From positions 1-57,338 of the forward strand of contig CAMNHY010000006.1 in NCBI GenBank assembly GCA_946540005.1: 57,338 nt of DNA, written 5' to 3'. Shown here piece after piece: positions 7,801 to 57,338 of this stretch. The notes under the pieces were generated by a model, which saw nothing but the letters and a program-made list of their open reading frames with translations, was not told where the DNA came from and ran no database searches. This stretch comes from an uncultured Clostridium sp. Lineage in GTDB: Bacteria; Bacillota_I; Bacilli_A; Acholeplasmatales; Anaeroplasmataceae. Each line of letters starts with the position of its first letter. Position 1 is the stretch's first letter. The translations under genes and the position numbers were made by a program.

Positions 7801-9729
7801 GCTGATTTAAATGAAGAAACAATCTTATCAAATTATAGTAATACTAATTGGGATAATGAATTAAGTGCTTTATTAACTAATTTAAGTTTAATTGGTCTTA
7901 ATATTAATCCTCAAAATGAGGTTGTTGTTGATACTAGACGTATATTATACTTAGGTGAACCAAATGAGACTGATAATACAAGAACTAATATTTCATTATT
8001 ATATGAATCAAGTATTTTATCTCATTCATTAAGTAAGACAATTAGCAATATCAATACAATATATGTTCCTTTATCTTCATATGATGGTGAAATCATTAAA
8101 GAAACTGAATTAGGTAATACAATACATGCATTCTTTGAATTAATAGGATTAGAAAATATCTCAAGTCAACAATTTGATATAGATAGTATAAAAGATTTTA
8201 TTGATTTAACTCGAATTGGAAATATTCAAACATTAGAAAATCTAGTAAAACCAAATATAGTTAATGCTACTATTGCCAATATGATTATTACTAAGACAGA
8301 TAGCAGTAACATTATTACTCCAAATGAATTTGTATTTAACAAGAATGATGAAACAAATCTAATTAAGTGGTTATATCAAGATGATTCAAATAAGGGTGAA
8401 ACAATTAAACTTATTGATTCAATCAATTCACTTAATTTATTAAATAATATAACAAGTGGAGATGTAGTTGTTAATATATCTGATGTATTAGATTTAAGTG
8501 ATTCAAATATTGATATTTTAACAAATAGTTCAATAATGGAAGCTACAATTATTGATTATATTGTTAATAATAAATCAAATGCTATCTATATTCCTACTGA
8601 TTATCAAATTAGTACTGATCTTTTAATTGCAAATTATAGTTCGTGCAAGTTCGTTACTGAAAACGAAATTAATAAGATGATTAAAGGTCTTGCACGTATT
8701 GGAAATGCATTCAGTAATCTAGCATTTAATTTCAATTTGATAGAAGGATTCTTAGAAAATGATTCTAATAATGTTAAGAAATTAGATACTATACTTAACA
8801 GTTATGTATTATGGTATTCAATTAGTAATTATTGTATGCAAGTAAATGATATTAATATTTCTAAATCAACAATTACTAGCATTTTAGATAATAATTATAT
8901 TACTAAGGAAGAAATTGAATTATTAATTGAATCTTTAAATATGCTAAATATATCTGATTTCAATGATATTAATTATAATTCAATATTATCAATTGATAAT
9001 GTTAATAACTTCCTAAATTCAACAACTATTTGGTATACAATATCAAATAAAATGTTTAATGTTTCAACAATTACATTAACTGAAAATGAAATTGAGATTA
9101 AAAACGAAGATGAATTATTCATTTATAAAGATGAATTATTAGCCTTTGTGCAAGGTGTAAAATTATTAACTACATCAAATGATTTAGATAATATTTCAAT
9201 TGAACCTAACAATGTTGTAGCTAATATAGATTCATTAATTGATAGTTCTATTATAAGAACATTAATTACAAAAGAAATTATTAATTCTAATAATGATATT
9301 GTAATAGAAAGAACTAATTTATCTACAAATGAAACAGAAACATTTGCATCTTTATTTAGAAAGTTTGAAAATAATAATTTATCAAATGATACTGTATGTC
9401 AATTAACTAAAGAAGAAATAATTGAATTTAAGAATGCAATTGTATTAATTTTTGGCACTAATAGTGTATCATTTGAGATTGATTATCAATCAATTAATTT
9501 CACTACAATTAATCAATCAATCTTAGATTCAACAATTATCCTAGCAGGTCTTCAAACAAATCTTAGAAAAGGTATTACTTACTATAATGCAGGTAGAAGT
9601 GAAGAAGACAAGGTTAAATTAACAAATGATTATTCTTATAGAGTATATAATTTGAATAGTGATACGACATATGAAGATTATATTTCTAAAGAAGAAGCAC
9701 ATAACTTTATTACAAAAATACATAATTAA
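4840..9729 (+). CDS. Very large CvpA-like membrane protein with a repetitive extracytoplasmic tail
   Basis: The protein has 1629 residues. The N-terminal 220 residues resemble the CvpA (colicin V production) membrane family: helices at about 14-33, 42-62, 129-151 and 195-219, the early GLRRGFSKS turn, and HRIAGSFVGLLRGIIVGIF before helix four. A lysine/arginine-rich loop (165-190) should be cytoplasmic. The remaining 1400 residues are hydrophilic, Asn/Ser/Asp-rich and contain at least nine, perhaps eleven, degenerate units of the form [DN]S-[ST]-I-x-x-x-x-I-x(3)-I followed some 10-15 residues later by a short strand, often ending I-P. Clear copies begin near residues 873, 950, 1057, 1140, 1229, 1320, 1392, 1467 and 1563. 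CvpA proteins are normally about 160-250 residues, so the tail is the unusual part. Its function is unknown; a surface or septal scaffold role is only a guess. Confidence 0.75.
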   Translation: MSDFVYKLLTDVLPWLPTIIFGICILFAFFSGLRRGFSKSLKLFITFLLAILISFIFFIVIKNNFDTISVRFADWILSFSGSSLQQKLNTTGTYSTLTQYLEEYLSKNEKIKEYVQSNNLTIQEVTKLIYSFALIIVNICLAITCIVVFFIAKAILYIFYLIFAREGRKKKKINRAFAEKRRDKPYKPHRIAGSFVGLLRGIIVGIFLMIPFGTLNLIVANNVSNIEYNTDKRDSTAAIAEVVDAINQYSTKGVGKILTSVKNPEGMPIYLIVADKLLSTEYVYKDENGQDVKLDLTLSKDIAPLTGFICNVSFQFLQYGYDINKQYTSDELIEFITSDKEIDGLTLEEKIKSLIESVGVEEKSLIGYVSDVFVISFVDKYVGEDVNDENISNQEISKKMLYHLFLGQNSLKSTEILAKGNLSQVFDIMVTVLKNKDTFVAINNTFNNNNKVNKSLAFGVEEASSENISKGKELMKEINEDLAHLSFYNSTKFNNLISDLVKDTLEEAVPQFDLTTTTGQDMYDVMWTNSIEEVFSFVGKCIDIIVDNQFNNSADFMSHCLTELGDTNSELYDGFKKILDSEGVSIVLNTVGFNSLVENTINDSLSSFIGDEKITFVDTNWATYKDSNGNVIKGEISKILDTIMPSVAKLYTIFISSDNGNLVENDYKEIIDILTDKNSSIFDLLETNNENHSNLIHAFLSDVFKAKFITYEDQRFGLYVPSNCLEEIDVRTGNYDVISSDSFKEIFDFLNQISDDAFDIKNGNADAINLIEKYSNSIKESDLILANISNILYRFGQKYLTIPQKLSLDDDVIDDNISQWTKENGEMSKLIDIVKNFSQIIHSIQNQSDTSKLMALVVKDGGATINSLSDSLIVNATITAKIKEVTNNTDLKIYIPDEAYNDSNHDTIKKNEFVQTVRYIKKIYDVDDSATSLDLKDFKYQRLLDKDAIEILLDSTIMVSTIAYFVRDHIVSNPNVSKYLVIPNDLLADLNEETILSNYSNTNWDNELSALLTNLSLIGLNINPQNEVVVDTRRILYLGEPNETDNTRTNISLLYESSILSHSLSKTISNINTIYVPLSSYDGEIIKETELGNTIHAFFELIGLENISSQQFDIDSIKDFIDLTRIGNIQTLENLVKPNIVNATIANMIITKTDSSNIITPNEFVFNKNDETNLIKWLYQDDSNKGETIKLIDSINSLNLLNNITSGDVVVNISDVLDLSDSNIDILTNSSIMEATIIDYIVNNKSNAIYIPTDYQISTDLLIANYSSCKFVTENEINKMIKGLARIGNAFSNLAFNFNLIEGFLENDSNNVKKLDTILNSYVLWYSISNYCMQVNDINISKSTITSILDNNYITKEEIELLIESLNMLNISDFNDINYNSILSIDNVNNFLNSTTIWYTISNKMFNVSTITLTENEIEIKNEDELFIYKDELLAFVQGVKLLTTSNDLDNISIEPNNVVANIDSLIDSSIIRTLITKEIINSNNDIVIERTNLSTNETETFASLFRKFENNNLSNDTVCQLTKEEIIEFKNAIVLIFGTNSVSFEIDYQSINFTTINQSILDSTIILAGLQTNLRKGITYYNAGRSEEDKVKLTNDYSYRVYNLNSDTTYEDYISKEEAHNFITKIHN

Positions 9730-23655: not shown

Positions 23656-24561
23656 ATGAAAGGTTTAGACAGAACAGAAGTAATATTTAGAATATTCTCA
23701 TACGTATTCTTAACATTATTTGCAATAGTTTGTTTATATCCAATGATTTATGTTTTATCTGTAGCTTTATCAGATACAGCTGGATATACATCAAATAATA
23801 TTTGGTTATTACCATTAGTAAGTGATGGTAATGGTGGAACTAGAGTTGGTATTTCACCATTTGATTCAGCAAATAGTGCATTCGCATATGTTGTTTCAGA
23901 AAAAACATTCTGGTTCTCATATTGTAATACTATTTTCTATGCATTCTATGGTACTGCAGTTTCAATGATTATTGGTATTACTGGTGGTTATGCTTTATCT
24001 AAAACACGTTTAATGTTTGGTAGAGGATTCAATTTCTTATTATCATTCACAATGTGGTTCTCAGCAGGTATTATCGCTACTTACCAAAATTTCGTTAACT
24101 TAGGTATTAAAAATAAATATGGATTTATTATAGGTCTTGGTTTCAACGCATTTAATATCATTTTATTAAGAAATGGTTTTAAAGGTGTTCCAACTGAAAT
24201 TGAAGAAGCTGCTACAATTGACGGTGCTTCAGAATTCCAATTATTAACTAAGATTTATATTCCAATGTCAAAATCTACAATAGCAACAGTAACAATGTTC
24301 TATGCATTGTCACGTTGGAATGGTTACTACTGGGCAAGTATATTACTTAGCGAAGAAGATCAACCATTACAAGTTCATATGCGTACTATGCTACAAGATA
24401 TTGAGAATTCAGAAATTGACTGGTCAGTTTCACACAATTATTCTCAAGATTCAGCTATGTTCGCAATGGTAATTTGTTCTATCATCCCTATCATCATCCT
24501 TTACCCATTAATGCAACGTTATTTCGCTGCTGGTGTAAATGTCGGTGGAGTTAAGGAATAG
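23656..24561 (+). CDS. Sugar ABC transporter permease, LplC-type
   Basis: This is the second membrane subunit of the importer (LplC/YtcP type), 301 residues with six helices. Its EAA loop EEAATIDGASEFQLLTKIYI near residue 190 contacts the ATPase. Helix one, YVFLTLFAIVCLYPMIYVL, and the C-terminal PLMQRYFAAGVNVGGVK are typical. An RBS (AGGAGGA) precedes ATG 23656, 17 bases after the partner permease. Its neighbours and the pectin enzymes suggest oligogalacturonide or rhamnogalacturonide uptake. Confidence 0.92.
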   Translation: MKGLDRTEVIFRIFSYVFLTLFAIVCLYPMIYVLSVALSDTAGYTSNNIWLLPLVSDGNGGTRVGISPFDSANSAFAYVVSEKTFWFSYCNTIFYAFYGTAVSMIIGITGGYALSKTRLMFGRGFNFLLSFTMWFSAGIIATYQNFVNLGIKNKYGFIIGLGFNAFNIILLRNGFKGVPTEIEEAATIDGASEFQLLTKIYIPMSKSTIATVTMFYALSRWNGYYWASILLSEEDQPLQVHMRTMLQDIENSEIDWSVSHNYSQDSAMFAMVICSIIPIIILYPLMQRYFAAGVNVGGVKE

Positions 24562-24601
24562 AAATATAAAAACAAAAAGACAAAAGGAGAAAAAAGAAAT
24601 A

Positions 24602-26938
24602 ATGAAAAAAAATTTAAAAGTTGCTCTTCTTTCTACTCTAGCTGTTGCAGGTGTTGCAACAATTGCTTCATGTAGTAAACCAGCAACAACATCAACAACT
24701 GGTTCACAACCAGCATCACAACCAACATCACAACCAACATCTACTTCTAGATATGATGGTAAAGGTGCAACTCTTCGTGTAGCTATTGACTACCAATCAG
24801 GTTCTAAAGTTTCAGGTGTATCATATCAAATGAAGGACTCTGTAACATTAGCTTATGGTGATAACACTGTTTTAACAAAGGATGTTACATTACCTACTTG
24901 GAAAGCATTTGGTTCTAAGTTAAACTTAGATATTAAAGATGGTCAAGATTATTCTAAAGAAATGAAAGACATATGGCAACAATATGATTCAGATGGTTAC
25001 AAAGATGCTAATGGTAATCTATTAGACCTTGTTATGGGTGATTCAAAGACTTATAACACTGCTATTGCTAACAATAAGCTTGAAGCAATTTCAGATCATA
25101 TTAATGAAATGCCTAACTTCAAGAGATGGACAGAAGAAAATGCATCAATTTACTCTTCAATGAGAGCTACTGATGGTAAAGTTTACTATACTCCATATTT
25201 TGATGGTTTAGATGACATCGAAAAGATGAATTTAATGAACATTGATTATATTGAAAAGTTATTAGATTCTGATGAAAATCAATTATCAACAGATAAGACT
25301 CCTTCATCAAAACAAGCATTTGCTTATCAACCAACTGTAGCTGATCAAGCTAGTGCTAAAGTAACTATTTCTTATAAGGGTGGTCGTACTAACTTCAATG
25401 CTAATTTCAGTGCTGATAACAATGCTGTTAAGAAGCAAAATGAATTAGATGTTAAGAATGGTAAGACATTAGTTCAAGCTTTAAAGGCTGCTTTAAAGGC
25501 TGAATATGCTGCTGCATTACCTCAATCTTTAGGTGGTACTGCTAGTGCTGCAGATGCTAAATTCACTAAGTTATCTGAAATTTTCACAAGCGAAAGTGCT
25601 TGCTATAATGTTGACGATTTAGTTGCATTATTACGTGCAGTTAAATATAATTCAACATTCTTAACAGGAGATGCTACTAAGAATATTACTCCAGTTGTTC
25701 CTCGTACAGCTCAAAATAACCGTACTTATCAAATTGCTGAAATGGCAGCATGGTGGGGTGTAAGAGGTCTTTCTGGTGAAAACGGAAAGTTATACTTCGA
25801 TACAAATGAAGAATTACAAGATGCTTGTGGTCAAGTAAAGACATATACTGTATTAGAATACTTAAATACTTTATACAATGAAGGATTAATCCAAGAAAAC
25901 CTATATACTAATGGTGGTTCTGACATGTCATCAACTGAATTCCGTAAAGCAGGTATTCAAAATGGTACTGTATTCATGGTATATGATTATAATGCTACAA
26001 CAACTCAATATAACAAAGACGTTGTATCAGCAAATAAGATTAATTTAACAGCTGTTTTACCTCCAGTACAAAATTGGACAGGAACTAAGAAGTTAGATTA
26101 TCATACAGAAGATTCAGCTAAAGGTTGGTCTGTAGATGGTTATGTTCACTTTACAGAAGATAACCGTGCATTAAAGTCAGGTGGATGGGCTATTCCTAAG
26201 ACTTCACAAAATAAGGCTAGTGCTTTAGCATTAATGGATTACTTATTCTCTGAAGAAGGTGCTAGAATCCAAGACTATGGTCCAGATTCAACTTATGCAG
26301 CTAACGCTACAGTTTCTATTAAGGATAGTAAATCAAAAGAAGTTGTAAAGACTTTCAATGTTAAAGCAGGTGACAGAGTTTATTGGAATGTTCCAAATGG
26401 TTCTGTAATTCAAGGTGGAGAAGACTGCCCAGTAATTTCAGATGTAATTAAGGCAGCTGTTCAATATTCTGGTTATACTTGGAACGATTATTATAGAATT
26501 TTCATTGGTTCAACACAAGGTATTGGACACGTTCGTTCATCAGGTCTAGATTATCAATGTACATTCTCTCAACAAGGTAGAGATGGTTTAAACAAGCTTG
26601 AAACTGCTATTGCTAATGGTTCATTCTTATTAGCTTGTACTACATTTGAAGATGATACAAATAAGTTCTTCAACTCAGTTCCTAGCCAAATCAATATTGA
26701 TGCTACAACTCAAACTCAACTTGACAAAGATACAGTTGTAAAAACAGTTAATAATTTCTGGAATAACGGTCAATCAAAGGTTGTTTGGACAGGTGCAAGA
26801 TTCATTTGTGGAGGATGGACTGAAAGCAACGTTGTTGCAGTTGTAACTTCAAAAGATGCATATCTATCTTCTTTAAGCACTTATAACGAAGTATATGTTA
26901 CTGCTTATAGAACTGGATTAAGAAACATGGGTATTTAA
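24602..26938 (+). CDS. Extracellular solute-binding lipoprotein of the pectin ABC importer
   Basis: This 778-residue lipoprotein has lipobox IASC (Cys24) followed by a low-complexity Ser/Thr/Gln/Pro linker (residues about 28-50). The mature part resembles LplA-type binding proteins, which deliver large oligosaccharides to LplB/LplC permeases. It is longer than the usual 430-560 residues, with an Ala/Lys-rich insertion near residues 230-320. I chose ATG 24602, where the signal peptide begins; the frame extends upstream into the permease gene but without a signal. AAAGGAG lies upstream. A strong hairpin follows the gene inside the operon. Confidence 0.88.
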   Translation: MKKNLKVALLSTLAVAGVATIASCSKPATTSTTGSQPASQPTSQPTSTSRYDGKGATLRVAIDYQSGSKVSGVSYQMKDSVTLAYGDNTVLTKDVTLPTWKAFGSKLNLDIKDGQDYSKEMKDIWQQYDSDGYKDANGNLLDLVMGDSKTYNTAIANNKLEAISDHINEMPNFKRWTEENASIYSSMRATDGKVYYTPYFDGLDDIEKMNLMNIDYIEKLLDSDENQLSTDKTPSSKQAFAYQPTVADQASAKVTISYKGGRTNFNANFSADNNAVKKQNELDVKNGKTLVQALKAALKAEYAAALPQSLGGTASAADAKFTKLSEIFTSESACYNVDDLVALLRAVKYNSTFLTGDATKNITPVVPRTAQNNRTYQIAEMAAWWGVRGLSGENGKLYFDTNEELQDACGQVKTYTVLEYLNTLYNEGLIQENLYTNGGSDMSSTEFRKAGIQNGTVFMVYDYNATTTQYNKDVVSANKINLTAVLPPVQNWTGTKKLDYHTEDSAKGWSVDGYVHFTEDNRALKSGGWAIPKTSQNKASALALMDYLFSEEGARIQDYGPDSTYAANATVSIKDSKSKEVVKTFNVKAGDRVYWNVPNGSVIQGGEDCPVISDVIKAAVQYSGYTWNDYYRIFIGSTQGIGHVRSSGLDYQCTFSQQGRDGLNKLETAIANGSFLLACTTFEDDTNKFFNSVPSQINIDATTQTQLDKDTVVKTVNNFWNNGQSKVVWTGARFICGGWTESNVVAVVTSKDAYLSSLSTYNEVYVTAYRTGLRNMGI

Positions 26939-44264: not shown

Positions 44265-45173
44265 ATGAGTGAAATTATAAAAAAATTCATATATGGAAGA
44301 GTTAAAGGAATAAATACCTCAGATAATATGTTAAATATTACAATTGAACAAGATGACAATAGTATTATGAATTTAAAAACTAATGATAAAAATTGTTCAG
44401 TTTTACAAGGATATATTTACAAGTTTGAAGTAGCTCAAAATGATAATTCTGAACGCCCTGTGGCATATTTATTAAATGCTACAAAAATTTCAGATTTAAC
44501 AGATTTAGAGGAAGTTAATGATATATACCGTAGATTTGATAAAAGAAATCCACTACCTTTATCAAATTTATTAGAATCAATTTATTCATATATTGAAAAA
44601 ATTGATAATAAAGTTTTACATGATATAACAAAAGGATTAATCAAGAAATATGAGAATGATTTCTTTATTTATCCAGCTGCAACTAAATTACATCATGCAT
44701 ATGTTGGTGGTCTTGCATATCATACATATGGTATGTTACAACTTGTAGATACATTTGCGAATAACTACTCATATTTAAATAAAGATTATTTATATAGTGG
44801 TGTTATTTTACATGACTTAGGTAAAATAATTGAATTTACAGGTGTGGAAAATACTGAATATGCGTTAGAAGGGCAATTGTTAGGACATTTAGTTATAGGT
44901 TCTTATTTTGTGAAAGACATGGCTCATGAATTAGGATATGAGGATAAAGAAGAAACATTATTACTTGAACATATGATTTTATCTCATCATGGACAACCTA
45001 ATTTTGGTGCAGCTAAAAGACCTCAAACTGCAGAAGCTTTAGTATTATGGTATTTAGACACAATGGATTCTAAATTAAGAGTACTTGGAGAACAATTCGA
45101 ACATACAGAAGATAATTCGTTCACAGATATGATTGGTGTGCTCGATAAAGTAAAATTTTATAAACATAAATAA
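44265..45173 (+). CDS. yhaM: YhaM-type 3'-5' exoribonuclease (OB fold plus HD domain)
   Basis: The 302-residue cytoplasmic protein has an N-terminal OB-like nucleic-acid-binding domain (residues about 10-85) and a C-terminal HD domain. The metal ligands appear in LHHAYVGGLAYHTYGM, GVILHDLGKIIEF, HMILSHHGQP and LDTMDSK. Both the architecture and motifs match YhaM, which degrades RNA and single-stranded DNA from the 3' end in Firmicutes. GAGGTGAA precedes ATG 44265. Confidence 0.9.
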   Translation: MSEIIKKFIYGRVKGINTSDNMLNITIEQDDNSIMNLKTNDKNCSVLQGYIYKFEVAQNDNSERPVAYLLNATKISDLTDLEEVNDIYRRFDKRNPLPLSNLLESIYSYIEKIDNKVLHDITKGLIKKYENDFFIYPAATKLHHAYVGGLAYHTYGMLQLVDTFANNYSYLNKDYLYSGVILHDLGKIIEFTGVENTEYALEGQLLGHLVIGSYFVKDMAHELGYEDKEETLLLEHMILSHHGQPNFGAAKRPQTAEALVLWYLDTMDSKLRVLGEQFEHTEDNSFTDMIGVLDKVKFYKHK

Positions 45174-45175
45174 AT

Positions 45176-45203
45176 GGAGAATTATTTATTCTCCCTTTAT
45201 TTT
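45176..45203 (+). terminator. Rho-independent terminator
   Basis: GGAGAAT (45176-45182) pairs with ATTCTCC (45188-45194) over a five-base loop, followed by CTTTATTTTT. Confidence 0.82.
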
Positions 45204-45271: not shown

Positions 45272-45299
45272 TTGACAAATAAAATGATATGATTATATT
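45272..45299 (+). promoter_or_regulatory. Promoter of the tandem lipoprotein genes
   Basis: A perfect -35, TTGACA (45272-45277), and TATATT (45294-45299) with a 16-base spacer precede the AAAGGAG and ATG of the first large lipoprotein. Confidence 0.8.
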
Positions 45300-45340: not shown

Positions 45341-48300
45341 ATGAGTAAAGTCTATAAGAAAATTTATAAGAAAAGAAATATATTAAAAACTGTTGGACTT
45401 ACTCTATCTACACTTGTGGCAGTCTCTACTTTAGCTTCATGTAGAGCTAGTGGGAATGTATATAGTGATATTGATAGTGATGGAATTTACAGTAAAATTG
45501 GAAATCATAATGTTACTAACAAAGAATTATTCAATGAACTTTCTTGGAGTGGCGCAGATGATTTAGATAAATATGTTGCTAAATCAATTGTTAACAAATA
45601 TTATAAGCAAGTCGTTAGTGCATTAGAAGATCCAAATTCAGAAGAATATTCAAAATATCATACTGAATATGTTGAAGATCTTCGTGAATATTTTGTAACA
45701 GAAGCTTATGCAGTTGATAATTTTGATGCATATTTTGATATCAATAACCCAGACATTTATAGAGAGAAGAGAGCTAAGGCAATTGATACTTTATATACAA
45801 ATGGAATTTCTTTATCAAAGACTGAATTTGACGCATTAGTTGAAATTGAATCTAAAGATGAAAAGACTTTAAAGGAATTAACATGGGAGAAGATGAGCAA
45901 TGGACAAAAAGAAGCTCTAAAGCAATATTATAGTTCTCTTGCTCAAAAATTATTTGCACTAAATTATTTAAATGATGAAATTGCTGATTATGAAAAAGAT
46001 AATAATGATAGTAAATTAGCTAAGACTGATGCTAATTATGTTCATTATTATAATGATAGTAAATTAATTTCATATTGGAAATCAAATTACTATTATAAGC
46101 AAACATATGCAAATGCTATCATGATTCGTTTTGTATCAAATGAAGAAGTTACAAGAACTTTAAAAACATTTGGTGTAAAACTTTATAAGTCAAAATTCTA
46201 TTTCATTAAACAAGAAGGTGTAACTTCAGATACTGGTACAATTAAGAATTTATCAGATGCTGAATATAGTTCTTGGTATGATGATTTTGATTTCACAAGC
46301 GCAGTAAATTCACAAGGAAACTTCCGTGTTTTAAGTGATGAAGAAGTACTTCAATTATATGTTGAAATGTATAATTACATTTATCCATATAGAGAGGCTT
46401 TAAATAGTCGTGAAGATGTAAAAGAAGTTAGCGATAATAATAAGACTTCAGCTAGAAGAGATGTTACTAATGTAATTATTAACTCTTCTGAAGACCAAAT
46501 TTCATGTGAAGAATTCTTTGAAACATATATTAAGACTAGTGCTGGTTATGATGAATATGTTAAGCATAAAGGTACAGATCTTGAAAAAGTAAATGCTTCA
46601 TTAAGAAATATGGTATATGATGATTTAGATGATTATTCATATTCAACAAGCGGTACTTCTAATAGTAATTATTATTACATGGCATTTAAGTTTAATGTTG
46701 ATACAACTGCTCTAGATGAATCAGAAGAAAATCTTTATTTCAAAGCTGATGACAATGGTGATAAGACACAAAAGGATTCAGAAGGAAAAGAAGTTAAGGT
46801 TGATTCTACAAAGGTTGATAGAGAACGTTCTGCAAGTATTATTTCAAAACTTGAAGAAGGTTTAAAAGATGATGATTTAACTGATACTTATATTGAAAAT
46901 GCAATTAAAGATAAGAAGAAAGATGCTAAGATTTCTATTTATAATGAAAACTTATCAATTGCATATGCTGTAGGATATGCTGATTACTATTCAAAGACAT
47001 ATGGTGGAGCACCTGAAAATGACGTTTTAGCTAAAGTTGAATATGATGGTGATACAACATATGTAAGTACTAAAGAATTCTATAAGAGTTTAGAGAGTAC
47101 AAGTGGTATTTCTACTGCAATTGATTTATTAACTAAAAAGATTGTAAAGACTACTGAAGCTTATAAGAAGACAGAAAGTCATACTGATGAATACTATACT
47201 TCATTAAATAATTTATTAACATCATTCTCAAACAATGGATTAACATCATATGGATATGATTCATCAATTGGTAAATACAATTTCTTAATGATGTATTTCC
47301 ATGCATCTGATGTAGAAACTATTATCAATGAAGTTTATAGAGTTAATGATGCAAGTGCTGGTATTTTAAATAATTATGCTTCTGACAATGAATTAATTAA
47401 TTTATTCGTTAAATATACAAAAGAAGCTTATGAGAATACATTCACAATTACAGCAACTAATTTATTAGTTTATGTAGATCTTGATGAAGATGGTGAACCT
47501 GATTCTACATTAGGATTTGTTGAAAACCCTAATGGTACAGTTTCTGGTGAAGGATTTGATTGGAATCAAGAAATTGAATTTGAAGGTAATATGGTTAAGT
47601 ATAGCGATATTGCTAAACAATTAATTAATGATATTATCAAGGTCGTAAAGAATGGTTCTGATGCATATAATACTGCAATTACTAATATCGTAAATGAATA
47701 TAATGCATGTACAAGATTCACTAATGGTTACGATAAAGAAGAAGCTAATGGTAATTTTGACCCAACAGAGGCTGAAACTTATTGGGCTAAATATAGAAGA
47801 GTTGGTCTATATCTAAAGACTGAGGAATTAAGTGGTGTTACAAATGGTACAGTTTATTCTACTGTTAATTCAACATTAAAAGAAGAATTACAAGCTATTT
47901 ATAATAGAGCTGATTTCTTATTTGATGAAGATGATAAGGTTGCACCAAAAGAATATCTTGATACATTACCATATGAAAATGGTGAAGGATTATTAGCTGA
48001 TAAAGGTTATAATTTATTAGTTGTAACTAGTGCTACAATCAATGCTAGCGCTAAGTTTGAATCTTTAGATGATTTAAATGGAATTTATTCTAATTTATAT
48101 TATTGGTATAATGAAGAATTAACATATATTTCTAATTTATATAATGATTCAAATACATTATCATTCAATCAAATCTTAGCATATATTCTTGAATATGCAG
48201 ATCATAGTACATCAAATACAATTCCATCTGCAGTATCTGATGCAATTTCATCATTCTTTAGTGCTGTATATACAAAATATACTTCAAGCGCTACTCAAAG

Positions 48301-48568
48301 AGAAATTTTAATTTATTGGTGTTTAAATGAAACAAATGCAACTGAATTTGAATTCTTTAACACATTAAATAGCGAAGATACAAAGTACTATGTATTCAAA
48401 GATGGTAGCAAAGTAACTTATGCTCAAAGATTTGAAGAAATTAGAAATATTAACAAGAGAAGTGCAGATAATTATCAATCTGAATTAAAATTCGATGACA
48501 CTTCAATTTACAATGATTTCTGGGGAGACCTTGAAACATATGTATCTAATAGATATAAGAAGAACTAG
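45341..48568 (+). CDS. Giant foldase/parvulin-like lipoprotein, paralogue 1 (parvulin histidines replaced)
   Basis: This 1075-residue exported lipoprotein has lipobox LASC (Cys34). After the Cys comes a SurA/PrsA-like N-terminal pattern (YSKIGNHNVTNKELFNELSW). Near residues 705 and 888 it has ATNLLVYVDLDEDG and KGYNLLVVTSA, which line up with the parvulin strands VNHILISVD and YGYHILNVYA of the next gene, but with Asn in place of both His. Proline isomerase activity is therefore doubtful, though chaperone binding could remain. PrsA is normally about 300 residues. Strong promoter and RBS (AAAGGAG); 17 bases before its paralogue. Confidence 0.7.
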   Translation: MSKVYKKIYKKRNILKTVGLTLSTLVAVSTLASCRASGNVYSDIDSDGIYSKIGNHNVTNKELFNELSWSGADDLDKYVAKSIVNKYYKQVVSALEDPNSEEYSKYHTEYVEDLREYFVTEAYAVDNFDAYFDINNPDIYREKRAKAIDTLYTNGISLSKTEFDALVEIESKDEKTLKELTWEKMSNGQKEALKQYYSSLAQKLFALNYLNDEIADYEKDNNDSKLAKTDANYVHYYNDSKLISYWKSNYYYKQTYANAIMIRFVSNEEVTRTLKTFGVKLYKSKFYFIKQEGVTSDTGTIKNLSDAEYSSWYDDFDFTSAVNSQGNFRVLSDEEVLQLYVEMYNYIYPYREALNSREDVKEVSDNNKTSARRDVTNVIINSSEDQISCEEFFETYIKTSAGYDEYVKHKGTDLEKVNASLRNMVYDDLDDYSYSTSGTSNSNYYYMAFKFNVDTTALDESEENLYFKADDNGDKTQKDSEGKEVKVDSTKVDRERSASIISKLEEGLKDDDLTDTYIENAIKDKKKDAKISIYNENLSIAYAVGYADYYSKTYGGAPENDVLAKVEYDGDTTYVSTKEFYKSLESTSGISTAIDLLTKKIVKTTEAYKKTESHTDEYYTSLNNLLTSFSNNGLTSYGYDSSIGKYNFLMMYFHASDVETIINEVYRVNDASAGILNNYASDNELINLFVKYTKEAYENTFTITATNLLVYVDLDEDGEPDSTLGFVENPNGTVSGEGFDWNQEIEFEGNMVKYSDIAKQLINDIIKVVKNGSDAYNTAITNIVNEYNACTRFTNGYDKEEANGNFDPTEAETYWAKYRRVGLYLKTEELSGVTNGTVYSTVNSTLKEELQAIYNRADFLFDEDDKVAPKEYLDTLPYENGEGLLADKGYNLLVVTSATINASAKFESLDDLNGIYSNLYYWYNEELTYISNLYNDSNTLSFNQILAYILEYADHSTSNTIPSAVSDAISSFFSAVYTKYTSSATQREILIYWCLNETNATEFEFFNTLNSEDTKYYVFKDGSKVTYAQRFEEIRNINKRSADNYQSELKFDDTSIYNDFWGDLETYVSNRYKKN

Positions 48569-48585
48569 GAAGGAAGGTAATAAAT

Positions 48586-51582
48586 ATGAGAAATTATAAA
48601 AAAGTTTTTGGTATTACAGCGCTTTCCCTTCTAGCTGTATCTCTTGCTTCATGTGAAGCAGGTAGAAATCAAAATGTACCTCTTACAAGTTCTACAATTG
48701 ATTTCAAATCTAATTATGCTTCAGTAAGTAATAATGGTAGTGACTATTCTGTTACTTATGAACAAGTTTATAACAAATTTAGAAGCAATGGATATGGTAC
48801 AGTATTATCTCAAATGAAGAAAGCTATCGTTTCTAAAGAAATGAAAGAAGCTACTTATGAGAAGAATGTAAAAGCATATAATGAAGCAATTATTGCTGCA
48901 ATATTTGGTACATCAAGCATTGATACATTCAAAAATCTTCATGAATATGAAATTGAAGATTATGAAGAAAAGGTTGATGACTTCATTACATCAGAATATG
49001 ATTCATATGGTTATGTATTAGACCAATATGCATCACAATTTAAAGCTTTAATTAAAGAATTGGCTACAAAAGATGATTTTAATTATTCTATTTCTTGGCC
49101 AAGTGAATTAATTGAACAAAACAGATATGGTGTAGCTTTACTTAATTTATCAAGAACATATCTAGAAAATGTTGTTGATAAAGAAAAGACATATAGTTAT
49201 TCAGAAAAGAAGAATGTTACTAATTCTTATTATATTGATGATGAGGCTTTAGAATCTGCTTATAAGTCTACATATTATAAATATAATAGAACTAAAGCCA
49301 TTGTAGTAAAATTCAAAACTGAAGCTGAAGCTAATAAATATTTTGAATTAAATAATACTACATTTGGAAATTTAACTAAAGGAAATAGTCGTGAATGGTA
49401 TGTATCTTTATATAATTTATATAATAAAGATAAGAAGAGTATTGACCCTACTGATCCATTCAATGATGATAATGAGGAACAAACTGTATTCTTTACAGAT
49501 GAAAAGAATACACAATTAGTTTCACAAACATCATCTGATATTGCTGAATTTATTTATGATCATCTTGATAATGGTTCATATCTAGAAACTCCACGTAATA
49601 TTGATGGTAACTACGCTATGATTTATAGAGAAGATGTTACATATTATTATGGTGATGGTACTGCAAACGATTGGTCAAGTGTTAAAAATATAACAGTAGA
49701 CGCACTTGGTAATAAGTTAGTTGATTATAAGAATAATGAAGTTTCACTTGCAAATTATATTAAAGGAAAGAAGATTGAAGGACAAGCTTCTCAATCTCTT
49801 GGTGAGTCATTAATCACTGATAAGCTAAAATATAATTCACAAATTGAAATTTATGATCCTATATTTGAAAATCAATTCTATAATTCTTATGAAGATTATT
49901 ACACTTTAACAAAGAATTTTGATGGTAGTAAGATATTTAAGATTACTTATACTGATGATAATTTTACTCCTGAAGATAAGAATGATGATACAGTAAATGA
50001 AGCTGTAACATATTCTGTTGATGAGTTCTTTAATGAAATGGATAAGATTCATGGTATCGATTATGCAACAACATTAATTGAATATGAATACTTATATAGT
50101 AGTGATTTAAAGAATTTATTCACAAAGTCTCAATGGAATACATATGAGGATAATGCTAATTCTCAAATTAATGATTTCAAGAAGAATAATACTGCATATT
50201 CTTCAAAGATGGGATTAAATAATTATTTAGCATTAACTTATGGTATTACTGTTGAAAAAGATGCAAAAGAAAGCTTAACTAAATATTTACGTCAACAAGC
50301 TTTAGCTACATCGCTACAAACATATTATGGTTATTTCATTGGCGAAACTTTATCAACTACAACAGGCTCTAACTTTGTAGATGATAATAATTTATTTACA
50401 AATTTTGCTCAATTTACAAAGAATATTTATAATAAATATTATGATATGTCAGTAAATCATATCTTAATTTCAGTAGACCCTAAGTCTAATGGAACACATG
50501 TTAATCCAATTAACTACATGGAAGATTTAGCTAAGGTTAATACTTCTTTAGTTGATGAATTTAAAGAAGCAGTTTATGTATTAGCTAACTTAATCTATGG
50601 TGAATTAGCAAATATTACTGCTAAATCAACTACTGCAATGTCATTCCTTGCAAAGACATACAATAATGTTGCATATTCATATACATTAACATCTCAATAT
50701 GCTAAGGACAATAATTATACAACTTGGGAAGATTTCAAGAATAAATATAGTGCATTTAATTTCTATTTAACTGCAGAAGATTTAGGACAAATCACTTCAA
50801 GTTCATCTTCAAATTATGTTGAAGAATTTAGAGATTATCTAAAGGATTTAGCTGATGAGATTGAATCTAATCCTGAAGTATTAGATAAAGAAGGTAATGA
50901 AAAGAAGATGCAAGATGTTATTGCTGATGATGGCGCATATCTTGTAAAAGAAGCAAGTTATGATGAATTATGCTTAACTCAATATGGTTACCATATTTTA
51001 AATGTATATGCATATACACAACCTGCTTCAGCTAAATTTAGTGAAACTGATGATTCAATTGTAAATGATTCTCAATGGAAGAGATATCAACACAAGGAAG
51101 TAACAATTAGTGAAAAATCTTCAAAAAATACTAAGGATGATTTAATTGTTTATGCTTCTGGTTATTCAAATGAAGATGCACCTAGTGCTGAACAATTATT
51201 TATTTACTTCTATGAAAGTTCTTCATCAACAGGTGTTAAATCAATGAAGTCTTCACTTGCTACAGCAGTTAAGACTTATTTCACAGATGTTATGAGCCGT
51301 TATAGTAATTCTTCATTCCAAACATATAGATTACTTCAACAAACATTAGGATTTGCTAATTATGATGCAAATAAGAAGACATTTACTTCAATTACATTCT
51401 ATAATACAGATAGAAGTACATCTTCAGAAAAGGCTGATAAGTTTGTAAAGTATGTAAAGAAGATTAGAATTGCATGCGACAATGGTGATGAATTAGAAGA
51501 AACTAGTGAATTCTATGGATGGTTTGATAAGAACTGGACATCAGATTTAACTAAGTGTTCATATTTCCATTATGATGACTAA
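48586..51582 (+). CDS. Giant foldase/parvulin-like lipoprotein, paralogue 2
   Basis: This 998-residue exported lipoprotein has lipobox LASC (Cys23). The parvulin (PpiC) core motifs are visible: SVNHILISVDPK near residue 622 and CLTQYGYHILNVYAYTQP near residue 798, with both expected His residues kept. They are about 175 residues apart, roughly twice the usual parvulin distance, so the domain carries an insertion. The rest is helical, Lys/Asp/Ser/Tyr-rich and not recognised. By analogy with PrsA it would help fold secreted proteins at the outer face of the membrane. A GGAAGG RBS precedes ATG 48586; it is cotranscribed with paralogue 1. Confidence 0.75.
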   Translation: MRNYKKVFGITALSLLAVSLASCEAGRNQNVPLTSSTIDFKSNYASVSNNGSDYSVTYEQVYNKFRSNGYGTVLSQMKKAIVSKEMKEATYEKNVKAYNEAIIAAIFGTSSIDTFKNLHEYEIEDYEEKVDDFITSEYDSYGYVLDQYASQFKALIKELATKDDFNYSISWPSELIEQNRYGVALLNLSRTYLENVVDKEKTYSYSEKKNVTNSYYIDDEALESAYKSTYYKYNRTKAIVVKFKTEAEANKYFELNNTTFGNLTKGNSREWYVSLYNLYNKDKKSIDPTDPFNDDNEEQTVFFTDEKNTQLVSQTSSDIAEFIYDHLDNGSYLETPRNIDGNYAMIYREDVTYYYGDGTANDWSSVKNITVDALGNKLVDYKNNEVSLANYIKGKKIEGQASQSLGESLITDKLKYNSQIEIYDPIFENQFYNSYEDYYTLTKNFDGSKIFKITYTDDNFTPEDKNDDTVNEAVTYSVDEFFNEMDKIHGIDYATTLIEYEYLYSSDLKNLFTKSQWNTYEDNANSQINDFKKNNTAYSSKMGLNNYLALTYGITVEKDAKESLTKYLRQQALATSLQTYYGYFIGETLSTTTGSNFVDDNNLFTNFAQFTKNIYNKYYDMSVNHILISVDPKSNGTHVNPINYMEDLAKVNTSLVDEFKEAVYVLANLIYGELANITAKSTTAMSFLAKTYNNVAYSYTLTSQYAKDNNYTTWEDFKNKYSAFNFYLTAEDLGQITSSSSSNYVEEFRDYLKDLADEIESNPEVLDKEGNEKKMQDVIADDGAYLVKEASYDELCLTQYGYHILNVYAYTQPASAKFSETDDSIVNDSQWKRYQHKEVTISEKSSKNTKDDLIVYASGYSNEDAPSAEQLFIYFYESSSSTGVKSMKSSLATAVKTYFTDVMSRYSNSSFQTYRLLQQTLGFANYDANKKTFTSITFYNTDRSTSSEKADKFVKYVKKIRIACDNGDELEETSEFYGWFDKNWTSDLTKCSYFHYDD

Positions 51583-51585
51583 TAT

Positions 51586-51610
51586 AAAGGAGCCTTCGGG
51601 CTTCTTTTAT
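51586..51610 (+). terminator. Terminator with UUCG tetraloop
   Basis: AAAGGAGCC (51586-51594) and GGCTTCTTT (51599-51607) pair over a TTCG loop, followed by TATTTTT. The downstream gene's AGGAGG starts soon after. Confidence 0.85.
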
Positions 51611-51627: not shown

Positions 51628-52416
51628 ATGAAAATATTACAAATAGCATCAGGTTCAAAAGGTAATTCCACTTATATTGAATCTGGTAATACAAAAATTT
51701 TGATAGATTGCGGCATTTCTAAAAAAAGAATTCATGAATCTTTAAGCGAGTATAATCACAATATTGAAGATTTAGATGCTATTTTGATTACACATGAGCA
51801 TACAGATCATACAAGTGGAATAATTCCAATATTTAATGCTACAAATGCTAAATTTTATATGACAGAAGGAACATATTCTAATTTAAATCAAAAAACACGT
51901 GATGCTATTAGATATGTTGATAGACTTGAATTTATAAATAATCAACAAATATTTAAAATTGGTGATTTAATAATAGAAACTATTCAAATCTTTCATGATG
52001 CAATAGATCCTGTTGGATTTATTATAAGAGATAATAAAACAAAATTAGTATATATAACAGATACAGGCTATATTCATAAGGCGTATGTTCCAAGATTAAT
52101 GGATGCTAATATTTATATTATGGAAAGTAATCATGATCCTGAAATTTTAATGAATAGTAATAGACCATATGAAACAAAGATGAGAATTTTATCAGATCAT
52201 GGACACTTATCTAATGAAGATAGTGCCTATATTATGTCTGAATTATTAGGTCCTAATACAAAATATGTATTATTGGCACATATTTCAGAAGAATGTAATT
52301 TAGAAGAAATTGCATTAGATACTTATAAAAAAGTATTTAATAAAACTAATAAATCTCTTCAAAATGCAAAATTAATTTGTTGTTCACAAAAGCCATTAAA
52401 GGAAATTGAATTATGA
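51628..52416 (+). CDS. walJ: Metallo-beta-lactamase-fold hydrolase, WalJ/YycJ family
   Basis: This 262-residue cytoplasmic protein has the metal-binding THEHTDHTSG motif near residue 54, DTGYIH near residue 148 and a later VLLAHISEECN His. The start MKILQIASGSKGNSTYIESG is characteristic of WalJ (YycJ), a DNA 5'-exonuclease-like protein of the walRK cluster in Firmicutes. The regulators walRK are not in the window, but the rlmH neighbour is the same as in Bacillus. AGGAGG precedes ATG 51628. It overlaps rlmH by four bases. Confidence 0.9.
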   Translation: MKILQIASGSKGNSTYIESGNTKILIDCGISKKRIHESLSEYNHNIEDLDAILITHEHTDHTSGIIPIFNATNAKFYMTEGTYSNLNQKTRDAIRYVDRLEFINNQQIFKIGDLIIETIQIFHDAIDPVGFIIRDNKTKLVYITDTGYIHKAYVPRLMDANIYIMESNHDPEILMNSNRPYETKMRILSDHGHLSNEDSAYIMSELLGPNTKYVLLAHISEECNLEEIALDTYKKVFNKTNKSLQNAKLICCSQKPLKEIEL

Positions 52417-53012: not shown

Positions 53013-54500
53013 ATGGAAAACTTAAACGCAGAATTATATGCAAAATTAACTGGTAATAAAAGACCTGAACGTCCAATTAAGGTGTTACAATTTGGTGAAG
53101 GAAACTTCTTACGTGCATTCGTAGATTGGATTATTAATACAATGAACAATAAAGGTGTATTCAATGGTAATGTAGCTGTTGTACAACCTATGCCATTTGG
53201 TCGTGTTGCTGATATGAAAACTCAAGATGGCTTATATACTTTATATCTTCAAGGTAAGCAAGATGGTAAGAAAGTAAGAACTCATGAGATTATCGATTCA
53301 ATTGGTGATTTAATTGATCCATTTGCAGAATATGATAAGTATTTAGCTTATGCTAAGTCAGAAGACTTACAATTCATCATTTCAAACACAACTGAAGCTG
53401 GTATTGCTTATGATGAAACAGATACTGATTTTACTAAGACTCCAAAGAGCTATCCTGGTAAATTACTTGCATTCTTAAAAGCAAGATATGATGCATTCAA
53501 TGGTTCACTTGAAAGTGGTTTATTCATTATGCCATGTGAATTAATTGATCACAATGGAGATACTTTAAAAGAAGTTGTTGTAAAATTAGCTAAGACTTGT
53601 GGTTATGATGAACAATTCATTAACTGGATTACAAAAGCTAATAAGTTCTACAACACATTAGTTGATAGAATTGTTCCTGGTTATCCAAGAGATAATGCTA
53701 AGGAATGCCAAGAAGAATTAGGTTATATTGATAACTCAATGGTAGTTGGAGAAATTTTCCACTTATGGTGCATTGATGGAGACGATATAAAGGCATTAGA
53801 AGAAGCATTCCCTGCTCCTAAGGCTGGATTAAATGTTTTATATGTTAATTCAATCGTTCCTTATAAGCAAAGAAAAGTTAAGATTTTAAATGGTACTCAT
53901 ACAGCAATCGTTCCAGTTGCTTATTTAGCTGGTGTTGATGCAGTTGCAGAAACTATGGCTGATCCTCAACTTGGAAAATATGCTCGTGATTTCATGTTTG
54001 ATGAAGTTATTCCAACTATTGATATTCCACATGATCAAATGGTTGCATATGCTAACTCAGTTATTGAACGTTATGAAAACCCATTCGTTCACCACTTATT
54101 AATGTCAATCGCATTAAATTCTGTAACTAAGTTCAAAACACGTGATCTTCCAACAGCTGTTCAATCAATTGAAGCTGGTAATTTCCCTAAGCATGCATTC
54201 TTCTCATTAGCAGCATTAATGGCATTCTACAAAGGTGAAAGAAATGTTAATGGTAAAGTTGAAACAATCGATTTAAAAGATGATCAATGGGCATTAGATT
54301 TCTTCAAGGCAGAATGGCAAGGATTTGATGGTTCTAAGAGCGCTTGTGAAAAAATCACTAAGGATTTCTTAGGTCTAGAGAAGCATTGGGAAATGGATTT
54401 AAATAAATTAAATGGTGTTACTGAATTTGTAGCAAACGCATTATATGAAATTGAAACAAAGGGTATGCGTGAAGCTATTAAGTCAGTAATCGGTGACTAA
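53013..54500 (+). CDS. uxaB: Tagaturonate reductase (altronate oxidoreductase)
   Basis: UxaB reduces D-tagaturonate to D-altronate with NADH, the second step of galacturonate breakdown. The 495-residue protein shows the mannitol-dehydrogenase-type nucleotide fold start VLQFGEGNFLRAFVDWII, ISNTTEAGIAY, the DRIVPGYP segment with the catalytic region, and VKILNGTHTA. TCGGAGGAA precedes ATG 53013. It is the first gene of the uxaBAC operon and takes over from the pectin island at 18.8-33.2 kb. Confidence 0.94.
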   Translation: MENLNAELYAKLTGNKRPERPIKVLQFGEGNFLRAFVDWIINTMNNKGVFNGNVAVVQPMPFGRVADMKTQDGLYTLYLQGKQDGKKVRTHEIIDSIGDLIDPFAEYDKYLAYAKSEDLQFIISNTTEAGIAYDETDTDFTKTPKSYPGKLLAFLKARYDAFNGSLESGLFIMPCELIDHNGDTLKEVVVKLAKTCGYDEQFINWITKANKFYNTLVDRIVPGYPRDNAKECQEELGYIDNSMVVGEIFHLWCIDGDDIKALEEAFPAPKAGLNVLYVNSIVPYKQRKVKILNGTHTAIVPVAYLAGVDAVAETMADPQLGKYARDFMFDEVIPTIDIPHDQMVAYANSVIERYENPFVHHLLMSIALNSVTKFKTRDLPTAVQSIEAGNFPKHAFFSLAALMAFYKGERNVNGKVETIDLKDDQWALDFFKAEWQGFDGSKSACEKITKDFLGLEKHWEMDLNKLNGVTEFVANALYEIETKGMREAIKSVIGD

Positions 54501-54527
54501 TTACTTTTTTAGGAGATTTAAATTAAC

Positions 54528-56006
54528 ATGATTGATTACATTATTATTAATCCTATTGATAATGTAGCCGTTGTATTAAGACCATATACTAAAGGTGAGG
54601 TTGTTGAGGGTGTTACTCTTCTTGAAGACATCCCTCAAGCTCACAAGGTTGCTTTAAAGGATATTAACAAGGGCGAAGATATTATTAAATATGGTAACCC
54701 AATCGGACATGCAACTTCTGATATTAAGAAGGGTGAACATGTTCATACTCATAATGTTGCAACTAATCTTGATGATATTATTGAGTATAAGTATGAACCA
54801 AAATATCCAGAAGTACGTGGATATAAATCAGACCGTAAGGTTATGGTTTATCCTCGTCAAAATGGTGAATTCGGTGTTCGTAATGAACTTTGGATTATTC
54901 AAACTGTTGGTTGTGTAAGTGGTATTGCTCAAAACATTATCAACAACTTTAAGTCTAAATATGATACATCAGATATTGATGGTATTTATACATTCAATCA
55001 TCCATTTGGATGTTCACAAATGGGTGGAGATTTAGATACTACAAGAATTTTCTTACAAGATATGGTAAAGCATCCAAATGCAGGTGGTGTACTTGTATTA
55101 TCTTTAGGATGTGAAGAAAACCAAGCTGATAAGTTTAGAGAAACTCTTGGAGAATATGATCCAAACCGTGTAAAGTTCTTAACTTTACAAGAAGTTAGTG
55201 ATGAAATTGGTGAAGGAACTAGATTATTAAAAGAACTTTATGACAATATGAAAAATGATAAGAGAGTTGAAGAACCTCTATCAGTACTTCGTATTGGTTT
55301 AAAGTGCGGTGGTAGTGATGGTATGTCAGGTATTACTGCTAATCCATTACTTGGTAGATTTAGTGATTTCTTAACAATTAATAATGGTACAACAGTTTTA
55401 GGTGAAGTACCTGAAATGTTTGGTGCTGAAAAGTTATTAATGGCTCGTGCTAAAGATGAAGAAACATTCAATCAAACTGTTGATTTAATTAATAACTTTA
55501 AATCATATTTTAAAAACCACCATCAAGTTATTTATGATAACCCATCACCAGGTAATAAGGCTGGTGGAATCACAACTCTTGAAGACAAATCATTAGGATG
55601 CGTTCAAAAGGGTGGTGCAGCAAAAGTTATGGGTGTTATTCCTATGGGTGGAAGAATTAAGAATAATGGACTTAATTTAATTTCAACTCCTGGTAATGAC
55701 TTAGTAGCTGTAACTACACTTGCTGCTGCAGGTTGTCAAATGGTATTATTTACTACAGGACGTGGAACACCATTTGGTGGATTCGTTCCTACAATGAAGA
55801 TTGCAACTAATACACAATTAGCTTCAAAGAAAGCAAATTGGATTGATTTCAATGCTGGTCAAGTTGTTGACGGTGCATCTTGGGATTCAACATTAGAGCA
55901 ATTTATTGATTTGATTTGCGATGTTGCAAGTGGTAAGAAACTTGCTAAAAACGAGGAAAATAATTTCCGTGAAATCTCTATCTTTAAAGACGGAGTAACT
56001 TTATAA
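54528..56006 (+). CDS. uxaA: Altronate dehydratase
   Basis: UxaA dehydrates D-altronate to 2-keto-3-deoxy-D-gluconate. The N-terminal SAF domain spans residues 1-90 (with HVHTHNVATNL), and the catalytic domain follows with HPFGCSQMGGD, LKCGGSDGMSGITANP and FTTGRGTPFGG. Cys and His residues in these motifs bind the Fe2+ cofactor in the family. The 492-residue length is normal. AGGAGA lies upstream, and the gene is 28 bases after uxaB. Confidence 0.95.
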   Translation: MIDYIIINPIDNVAVVLRPYTKGEVVEGVTLLEDIPQAHKVALKDINKGEDIIKYGNPIGHATSDIKKGEHVHTHNVATNLDDIIEYKYEPKYPEVRGYKSDRKVMVYPRQNGEFGVRNELWIIQTVGCVSGIAQNIINNFKSKYDTSDIDGIYTFNHPFGCSQMGGDLDTTRIFLQDMVKHPNAGGVLVLSLGCEENQADKFRETLGEYDPNRVKFLTLQEVSDEIGEGTRLLKELYDNMKNDKRVEEPLSVLRIGLKCGGSDGMSGITANPLLGRFSDFLTINNGTTVLGEVPEMFGAEKLLMARAKDEETFNQTVDLINNFKSYFKNHHQVIYDNPSPGNKAGGITTLEDKSLGCVQKGGAAKVMGVIPMGGRIKNNGLNLISTPGNDLVAVTTLAAAGCQMVLFTTGRGTPFGGFVPTMKIATNTQLASKKANWIDFNAGQVVDGASWDSTLEQFIDLICDVASGKKLAKNEENNFREISIFKDGVTL

Positions 56007-56033
56007 TTTTTATGTTTAAGGAGAACTAGAATT

Positions 56034-57338
56034 ATGATTAATTTTATGGACGATGACTTCTTATTAACAACAGAAACTGCTAAGAAGTTATATCATGAAC
56101 ATGCAGAAAAGATGCCTATTATTGACTATCACTGCCATCTTCAACCAAAAGAAATTTATGAAGATAAGAAATTCAGAAATTTAGCTGAAGCATGGTTAGG
56201 TGCTGGTGATAGATATGGTGATCACTATAAATGGAGAGCATTACGTGCTAGAGGTTATTCTGAAGATTCAATTTCAGGTAATGTTCCAGGTAAGTCTTTA
56301 GAAGAAAGTGATTATCAAAAATATTGCCAATTTGCTGAATCTATGCCTTATTTTGTTGGTAACCCATTATACCATTGGTCTCATCTTGAAATGAGAAGAT
56401 ACTTTGGTATTTATGATATTATCAATAAGAAGAATGAAAAGAAGATTTGGGATGAAGCTAATGCTAAACTTGAAACATTAACTGCACGTCAAATGATGTA
56501 TAAGTTCAATGTTGATACAGTTTGTACAACAGATGACCCAGTAGATGATCTTCATTATCATAAATTAATGGCTGAAGATAAGACTTTAAAAGTTAAAGTT
56601 AGACCTGCATTCCGTCCAGACAAGGCTATTAATGTAGAACTTGATTGGTTTGGTGAGTGGGTTAATAAGCTAGCTTCTGTAGTTGGTTATGAAATCAAAG
56701 AATTATCAGATTTAACTAAGGCTCTTGCAGAAAGAATTGATTTCTTCCATGAAATGGGTTCTCGTTTATCTGACCATGCATTAGATGTTGTTCACTATTG
56801 CCCAGCAACTTATGAAGAAGCTAATGCTGTATTCCACAAGGGTATGAAGAATGAACCAGTAAGCGACCATGAACAAGACCAATATAAGGGTTATATTATG
56901 GTATTCTTAGGAAAAGAATATTATAAGCATGGTTGGACTCAACAATATCATATTGGTGCACTTCGTAATAACTCTAAATCAATGTTAAAGAAGATTGGAC
57001 CAGATACTGGTTTTGATGCAATTGAAGACCAAGTTTATATGGAAAAGTTATCTCAATTACTAGGTGCTCTAGATGAGGCTGATGCTCTTCCAAAGACTAT
57101 TTTATATGATCTAAATCCACGTGATAACTATGCATTAATGGTTCTTGCTGGATGCTTCCAAAAGGAAGGTGTTAAGAACAGAGTTCAAGTAGGTACTGCT
57201 TGGTGGTTCTTAGATCAATTAGATGGTATGAAGCAAAATATGGAAGCTATGATGCAAGTTACAGTTATGAGCCAAGCTGTTGGTATGTTAACTGATTCTC
57301 GTTCATTCTTAGCTTATCCACGTCATGAATATTATAGA
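56034..57338 (+). CDS. uxaC: Uronate (glucuronate/galacturonate) isomerase, C-terminus outside the window
   Basis: UxaC converts D-galacturonate to D-tagaturonate (and glucuronate to fructuronate), the first step of the pathway. 435 codons are present and the frame is open to the last base. Family marks are the metal-binding DYHCHLQPKE near residue 31, NPLYHWSHLEMRRYFGI, CTTDDPVDDL, the LSDHALD region and GTAWWFLDQLDG. The complete protein is normally about 465-475 residues, so roughly 30-40 are missing. AAGGAGAA precedes ATG 56034. Confidence 0.95.
   Translation, partial: MINFMDDDFLLTTETAKKLYHEHAEKMPIIDYHCHLQPKEIYEDKKFRNLAEAWLGAGDRYGDHYKWRALRARGYSEDSISGNVPGKSLEESDYQKYCQFAESMPYFVGNPLYHWSHLEMRRYFGIYDIINKKNEKKIWDEANAKLETLTARQMMYKFNVDTVCTTDDPVDDLHYHKLMAEDKTLKVKVRPAFRPDKAINVELDWFGEWVNKLASVVGYEIKELSDLTKALAERIDFFHEMGSRLSDHALDVVHYCPATYEEANAVFHKGMKNEPVSDHEQDQYKGYIMVFLGKEYYKHGWTQQYHIGALRNNSKSMLKKIGPDTGFDAIEDQVYMEKLSQLLGALDEADALPKTILYDLNPRDNYALMVLAGCFQKEGVKNRVQVGTAWWFLDQLDGMKQNMEAMMQVTVMSQAVGMLTDSRSFLAYPRHEYYR

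Follow-up and report, generated by a model that had tools for sequence, protein, structure and literature searches.

What are the two giant lipoproteins encoded side by side in this stretch of DNA, and why does only one of them carry the paired histidines of a parvulin domain? In the window (the whole stretch of 57,338 nt that was analysed, from a genome of 0.93 Mb that is 76% complete), the plus strand holds, in this order, yhaM, the genes for paralogues A and B and an MBL-fold gene (Table 1); beyond them lies a further gene that we take, from its sequence only, to be rlmH-like. A sequence-only reading had described A and B as tandem parvulin-like lipoproteins of about 1000 residues, three times the size of a usual PrsA, and the description holds: the proteins have 1075 and 998 residues, both carry the lipobox LASC, their genes are separated by 17 nt, and the size ratio agrees with the length of PrsA. 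The motifs quoted in that reading are likewise in place, NHILISVD at residues 624-631 and GYHILNVYA at residues 801-809 of B, and TNLLVYVD at residues 706-713 and GYNLLVV at residues 889-895 of A. Its suggestion that the two proteins are homologous was confirmed by pairwise comparison, with a BLASTP E-value of 3e-8 between A and B and, between the family profiles (30 relatives of A, 29 of B), an E-value of 5.8e-64 over 844 aligned columns; the pair is therefore the product of a duplication.

Decay of A into a pseudogene was considered and rejected, because A is intact, conserved and near-universal: it has no internal stop codons, it is present in 52 of the 55 family genomes, and with a mean column identity of 40%, against 35% for B, it is if anything the better conserved of the two, strongly conserving residues of its own that differ from those of B. 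A phage origin of the pair was also rejected, as no match was found among phage records. Three terminator-like sites were found in the A-B region, against 1.0 expected from shuffles. The promoter-like site upstream of A counts as weak evidence, since the total of such sites in the region equals chance.

Table 1. Features of the pair and its flanks (window coordinates; a dot marks a feature without assigned strand).
Feature	Position	Strand	Basis or remark
yhaM-like 3'-5' exoribonuclease gene	44265..45173	+	NF010007 E 7e-64, below curated cut-off; context gene
Terminator-like stem-loop between yhaM and A	45176..45194	.	Readable on both strands
Promoter-like site upstream of A	45272..45299	+	TTGACA-16-TATATT, 11/12; best site of the region
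Paralogue A, 1075-aa lipoprotein, His-less (pseudo-)parvulin member	45341..48568	+	ORF, family profiles, column counts
A lipoprotein signal peptide, ending at lipobox Cys34	45341..45442	+	LASC; Cys34 at least 90% conserved in A relatives
A N1 module, PrsA-N-like, about residues 40-260	45458..46120	+	32.6 without signal peptide, at most 23.0 in controls; weak when A is taken by itself
A N2 module, PrsA-N-like, about residues 550-705, directly before the parvulin-like domain	46988..47455	+	A 545-1075 against PrsA, 56.3
A degenerate parvulin-like domain, about residues 694-903	47420..48049	+	Alignment to the B domain
A Asn707 codon, at the first parvulin His position	47459..47461	+	A column R16, N8, K3 and others, never His
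A Asn891 codon, at the second parvulin His position	48011..48013	+	A column N27, S2, R1
Paralogue B, 998-aa lipoprotein, His-retaining member	48586..51582	+	ORF, family profiles, column counts
B lipoprotein signal peptide, ending at lipobox Cys23	48586..48654	+	LASC; Cys23 invariant in B relatives
B N1 module, PrsA-N-like, about residues 30-235	48673..49290	+	35.6, control maximum 19.0
B N2 module, PrsA-N-like, about residues 440-612, beginning the PrsA-like unit	49903..50421	+	B 440-998 against PrsA, 99.7
B parvulin-like domain, about residues 612-815	50419..51030	+	Profile match 68.6, localised to 601-804
B His625 codon	50458..50460	+	Motif alignment places it at S. aureus PrsA H146; His in all 29 B and all 19 single-copy relatives
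B Phe748 codon, probable proline-pocket Phe (pocket role inferred)	50827..50829	+	Invariant in B and single-copy relatives
B His803 codon	50992..50994	+	Motif alignment places it at S. aureus PrsA H239; His in all 29 B and all 19 single-copy relatives
Terminator-like hairpin, 4 bases 3' of the B stop	51586..51607	+	Terminator scan
MBL-fold hydrolase gene	51628..52416	+	In many genomes of the order, lies beside the pair or the single-copy gene

Relationship to PrsA

The parvulin assignment of the sequence-only reading drew no support from a library profile search for PpiC/Rotamase: neither A nor B gave a meaningful match, or any PrsA model, in Pfam and NCBIfam scans, a Pfam scan of 59 family members returned no Rotamase match, and across 114 genomes of the order no protein matched Pfam Rotamase, the same model giving matches in 8 of 14 control genomes, B. 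subtilis included. PDB sequence and profile searches with A and B likewise found no significant match, SurA appearing at an E-value of 1.2.

Direct comparison of profiles gives a different picture. Since hhalign E-values refer to a single comparison only, we judged the parvulin match by shuffled controls. A profile of the B domain scored 68.6 against 19 canonical parvulin domains, with at most 22.6 for 100 column-shuffled controls and 14.3 for the reversed profile; among windows of B the match is best at residues 601-804, and it still scores 47.1 when both histidines are masked. A alone is marginal against canonical parvulins (25.7; controls at most 18.7). Extending the comparison to 14 canonical PrsA proteins, residues 440-998 of B scored 99.7 (column-shuffled controls at most 18.6) and residues 545-1075 of A scored 56.3 (controls at most 20.6), and the single-copy relatives found in other families of the order scored 125.9 (controls at most 17.9). 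An alignment of these relatives that spans PrsA columns 34-340 of 354 scored 124 (controls at most 21.5), and the matches of A and B themselves stop short of the C-terminal part.

Next to yhaM, other families of the class have bridging orthologues. They are 540-790 aa long, carry a Pfam Rotamase domain (E-values down to 1e-21) and are detected by the profile of the order at best E-values of 4e-20 to 3.5e-26; in the one example inspected, L155, the Rotamase core sits between the SHILF and GFHV strands. Gene neighbourhood points the same way: yhaM adjoins prsA in Listeria, Staphylococcus and B. subtilis (PMC3921577), and the A-B pair or the single-copy relatives occupy this yhaM-adjoining slot.

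The resemblance could in principle be one of chance, or of convergence on two short motifs in unrelated large lipoproteins, as the silence of the library profiles, the E-value of SurA in the PDB profile search and the structure predictions would allow. AlphaFold models built from 4-row alignments, with rows from the window and one related locus, are of low confidence (pLDDT 56.6 for the B domain and 45.6 for the A domain), with an order of elements in B that is compatible with that of a parvulin (beta-alpha3-beta-alpha-beta2), and Foldseek found no significant match for the low-confidence B model. Such a coincidence is very improbable against the shuffled, reversed and other-window controls, the alignment of single-copy relatives to the whole of PrsA, the bridging proteins with real Rotamase domains and the common yhaM neighbourhood. 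Parvulin homology at about residues 620-810 of B, as the sequence-only reading had it, is thus supported by controlled profile comparison together with the bridging orthologues, and it is almost certain that A and B both derive from PrsA. Their failure to reach the library models for PrsA and PpiC reflects a sensitivity threshold rather than biology, and they are therefore filed, on sequence comparison, as highly divergent relatives of this secretion chaperone and not as recognised members. A search confined to a library of open-access papers found no paper describing the family of A and B.

Domain layout

Paralogue B consists of an N-terminal module N1 (about residues 30-235), a middle region (about 235-440) and a unit made up of N2, the parvulin-like domain and a C-terminal part (about 440-998). 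The extra length of B arises in part because the N-module has been duplicated, leaving a second PrsA-N-like module at the N-terminus, and the N-terminus of the single-copy relatives likewise gives a second alignment to the PrsA N-domain, with a score of 96 with the signal peptide and 61.9 without it (control maximum 22.3). No convincing relative was found for the middle region of B, which is only marginal against PrsA. A hidden second parvulin domain was looked for at residues 205-380 of B and 200-400 of the single-copy relatives and rejected, as the signal was not clearly above controls.

The PrsA proteins of Bacillus, Listeria and Staphylococcus share with A and B the lipoprotein signal, the combination of N-domain and parvulin domain, the yhaM neighbour and, in the case of B, the paired histidines (PMC3921577). 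A and B differ from them in being about three times longer, with one more PrsA-N-like module at the N-terminus and a middle region without known relative, in a parvulin domain of about 200 residues rather than 95-120 that falls below every library threshold, and in forming an asymmetric tandem pair. SurA offers another comparison, as a multi-module extracytoplasmic chaperone with two parvulin domains and as the sole parvulin among the two sub-threshold PDB profile matches, with collinear pieces; in A and B, however, the two parvulin states sit in two separate proteins, and no second parvulin domain was detected in either.

As a separate observation, most A, B and single-copy proteins have a DxDxDG-like acidic loop after the first parvulin strand (window positions 47477-47503 in A and 50476-50505 in B). 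To judge from its motif the loop may bind calcium, and it is degenerate in the window's own B.

Active-site residues

The paired parvulin histidines of S. aureus PrsA are H146 and H239 (PMC2678132). Equivalents of H625, F748 and H803 of B occur in all 29 B relatives and in all 19 single-copy relatives, drawn from two other families of the order, and in none of the 30 A relatives; the 30 losses represent one inherited event and not 30 independent ones. Six residues are strictly invariant among the B relatives (H625, H803, G801, T798, L733 and F748), four of which (H625, G801, F748 and H803) are also invariant in the single-copy relatives, and the column of Phe748 in A holds L in 19, I in 7, V in 2 and A in 2 relatives. 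Replacement of the histidines of A by asparagine, as claimed from the window, applies throughout the family to the second site (27/30 Asn); the first site is mostly Arg (16/30), and both sites are Asn only in the window's own sub-clade.

The further suggestion of an active and an inactive partner agrees with the age and conservation of this asymmetry (29/29 for B versus 0/30 for A), and with a similar pair that arose independently elsewhere (below). Against it, the catalytic Cys/Asp expected before the GGDLG motif is not recognisable in B, A or the single-copy relatives, in a part of the alignment that is weak. The two histidines of human Pin1 are reported to be structural and not essential (PMC6983177), and Asn or Ser at these sites supports yeast viability (PMC6983177, PMC2678132), so that A could retain activity and the loss of its histidines alone is no proof of inactivity.

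These observations leave room for a reading in which both proteins are holdases built of PrsA/SurA-type modules, with a parvulin fold that serves for binding only and histidines that B keeps for the stability of the domain. There is a precedent in E. coli PpiD, whose parvulin domain is devoid of activity and which works as a chaperone (PMC2956729), and both the structural role of the Pin1 histidines (PMC6983177) and the lack of a recognisable Cys/Asp signature in B and the single-copy relatives would fit. We consider this reading unlikely, because the strict invariance of six residues in 29 of 29 B relatives, four of them also in the 19 single-copy relatives, suggests more than stability, and because A demonstrates that the rest of the domain can persist without the histidine pair.

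Distribution and history

The pairing, which the sequence-only reading had proposed to check, is conserved in related genomes. A and B are each present in 52 of the 55 family genomes, the exceptions being mostly incomplete genomes, and in one genome (G007) A runs off the contig end. In the loci examined A stands directly before B; the gap, measured in 17 plus-strand loci, runs from -1 to 17 nt and is often a 1-nt overlap. In most genera the pair is convergent with yhaM, as the single-copy gene usually is. The window's sub-clade carries the A-B segment the other way round with respect to yhaM and the MBL gene, A still preceding B. No relatives were found in the small genomes (0.5-0.9 Mb) of genus g17.

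In a tree, A, B and the single-copy proteins form three clades, each supported at 99, and the deepest genus of the family (G054) has both A and B, each basal in its own clade; the duplication therefore predates the radiation of the family. It may have taken place in the ancestor of the family, or earlier with loss elsewhere, the three clades meeting in a three-way fork. From the pattern of residues across the clades, A lost its active-site residues before its family diversified.

Recurrence in other families

Another family of the class, f7, has likewise a tandem duplication of the giant gene beside yhaM (genomes G181, G196 and G202; L190:2999-8594, L191:458-5637 and L192:2753-8845). The first copy of these pairs keeps the second histidine and has Asn at the first site, and the second copy has lost both. 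The six f7 proteins form one clade (99), so these genes were duplicated separately from those of the window's family.

In genomes of families f15 and f20, a PrsA of canonical size (331-363 aa) is followed by a shorter paralogue near yhaM (L164:3293-5163, L165:2200-4049 and L166:1212-3172). The two are related at a profile E-value of 3e-14, with three rows in each profile, and the one shorter paralogue scanned, that of L165, has no Rotamase match. Taken with the f7 pairs, these show that asymmetric PrsA pairs at the yhaM locus are not unique to the window. At loci L159-L163, a lipoprotein of about 600 aa that matches Rotamase weakly precedes, near yhaM, another lipoprotein of about 520-610 aa; outside the signal peptide no homology between the two was detected. 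The second lipoprotein near yhaM in families f9 and f19 was rejected as a pair member, as it has no clear homology beyond the signal peptide.

Gene order and recurrence bear on whether A and B work together. They could instead be two independent PrsA-type chaperones that divide clients between them without forming a complex, the loss of histidines altering the client preference of A. Listeria PrsA1 and PrsA2, the products of duplicated PrsA genes, have separate roles (PMC3921577), and the strong conservation in A of its own, different residues would fit. We regard this as rather unlikely, since both the near-invariable adjacency, order and tight spacing of the genes and the separate origin, in another family, of a tandem pair with asymmetric loss fit joint work more easily.

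Proposed role of the pair

We favour, at a probability of roughly 0.5, a membrane-attached, PrsA-derived chaperone pair for newly exported proteins, in which B has a possibly active parvulin domain and A is its pseudo-parvulin partner. A giant, divergent secretion foldase of PrsA type would have been duplicated in place to give the tandem A and B, both of which, to judge from their lipoboxes, would be lipoproteins on the outer face of the membrane. B probably binds prolines of newly exported proteins and may isomerise them. A has the same layout and has lost the histidine pair and the pocket Phe, and it is most likely a non-catalytic chaperone or scaffold subunit. PrsA forms dimers (PMC3921577), and a heteromer would thus arise naturally if the gene of a homodimer were duplicated and the copies then specialised. 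Given this homodimer, and two genes that almost always lie side by side with little space between them, A and B most likely form a heteromer of one catalytic and one structural subunit, which we infer from adjacency, order and co-occurrence. An ordinary folding enzyme seems to have turned into a specialised two-part one. A known parallel is the PpiD-YfgM heterodimer of the E. coli inner membrane, in which a chaperone with a catalytically dead parvulin domain works at the translocon (PMC2956729, PMC9643414); YfgM, however, is a TPR protein and no paralogue of PpiD, whereas the proposed A-B heteromer would join two paralogous PrsA-type lipoproteins.

The PrsA assignment explains a pair of giant unannotated lipoproteins and supplies a probable PrsA foldase for an entire order, in which the standard parvulin model detects none. 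The pairs also offer a natural experiment on parvulin domains, with one scaffold present side by side with and without the active site, and make it testable whether the PPIase activity of PrsA or only its chaperoning matters. More tentatively, and on balance somewhat unlikely, homodimeric PrsA may have become, repeatedly in several lineages of the class and at the same locus, an obligate heteromer in which one giant subunit bears the histidines and the other is a pseudo-enzyme.

Other features of the window

Two long ORFs elsewhere in the window, of 1629 aa (4840-9729) and 799 aa (24539-26938), are without any Pfam match. Downstream of the pair, positions 53013-57338 hold a likely hexuronate catabolism cluster, with a mannitol-dehydrogenase-type reductase and an altronate/galactarate dehydratase-type protein; an open ORF in the cluster resembles, by look only, a uronate isomerase.
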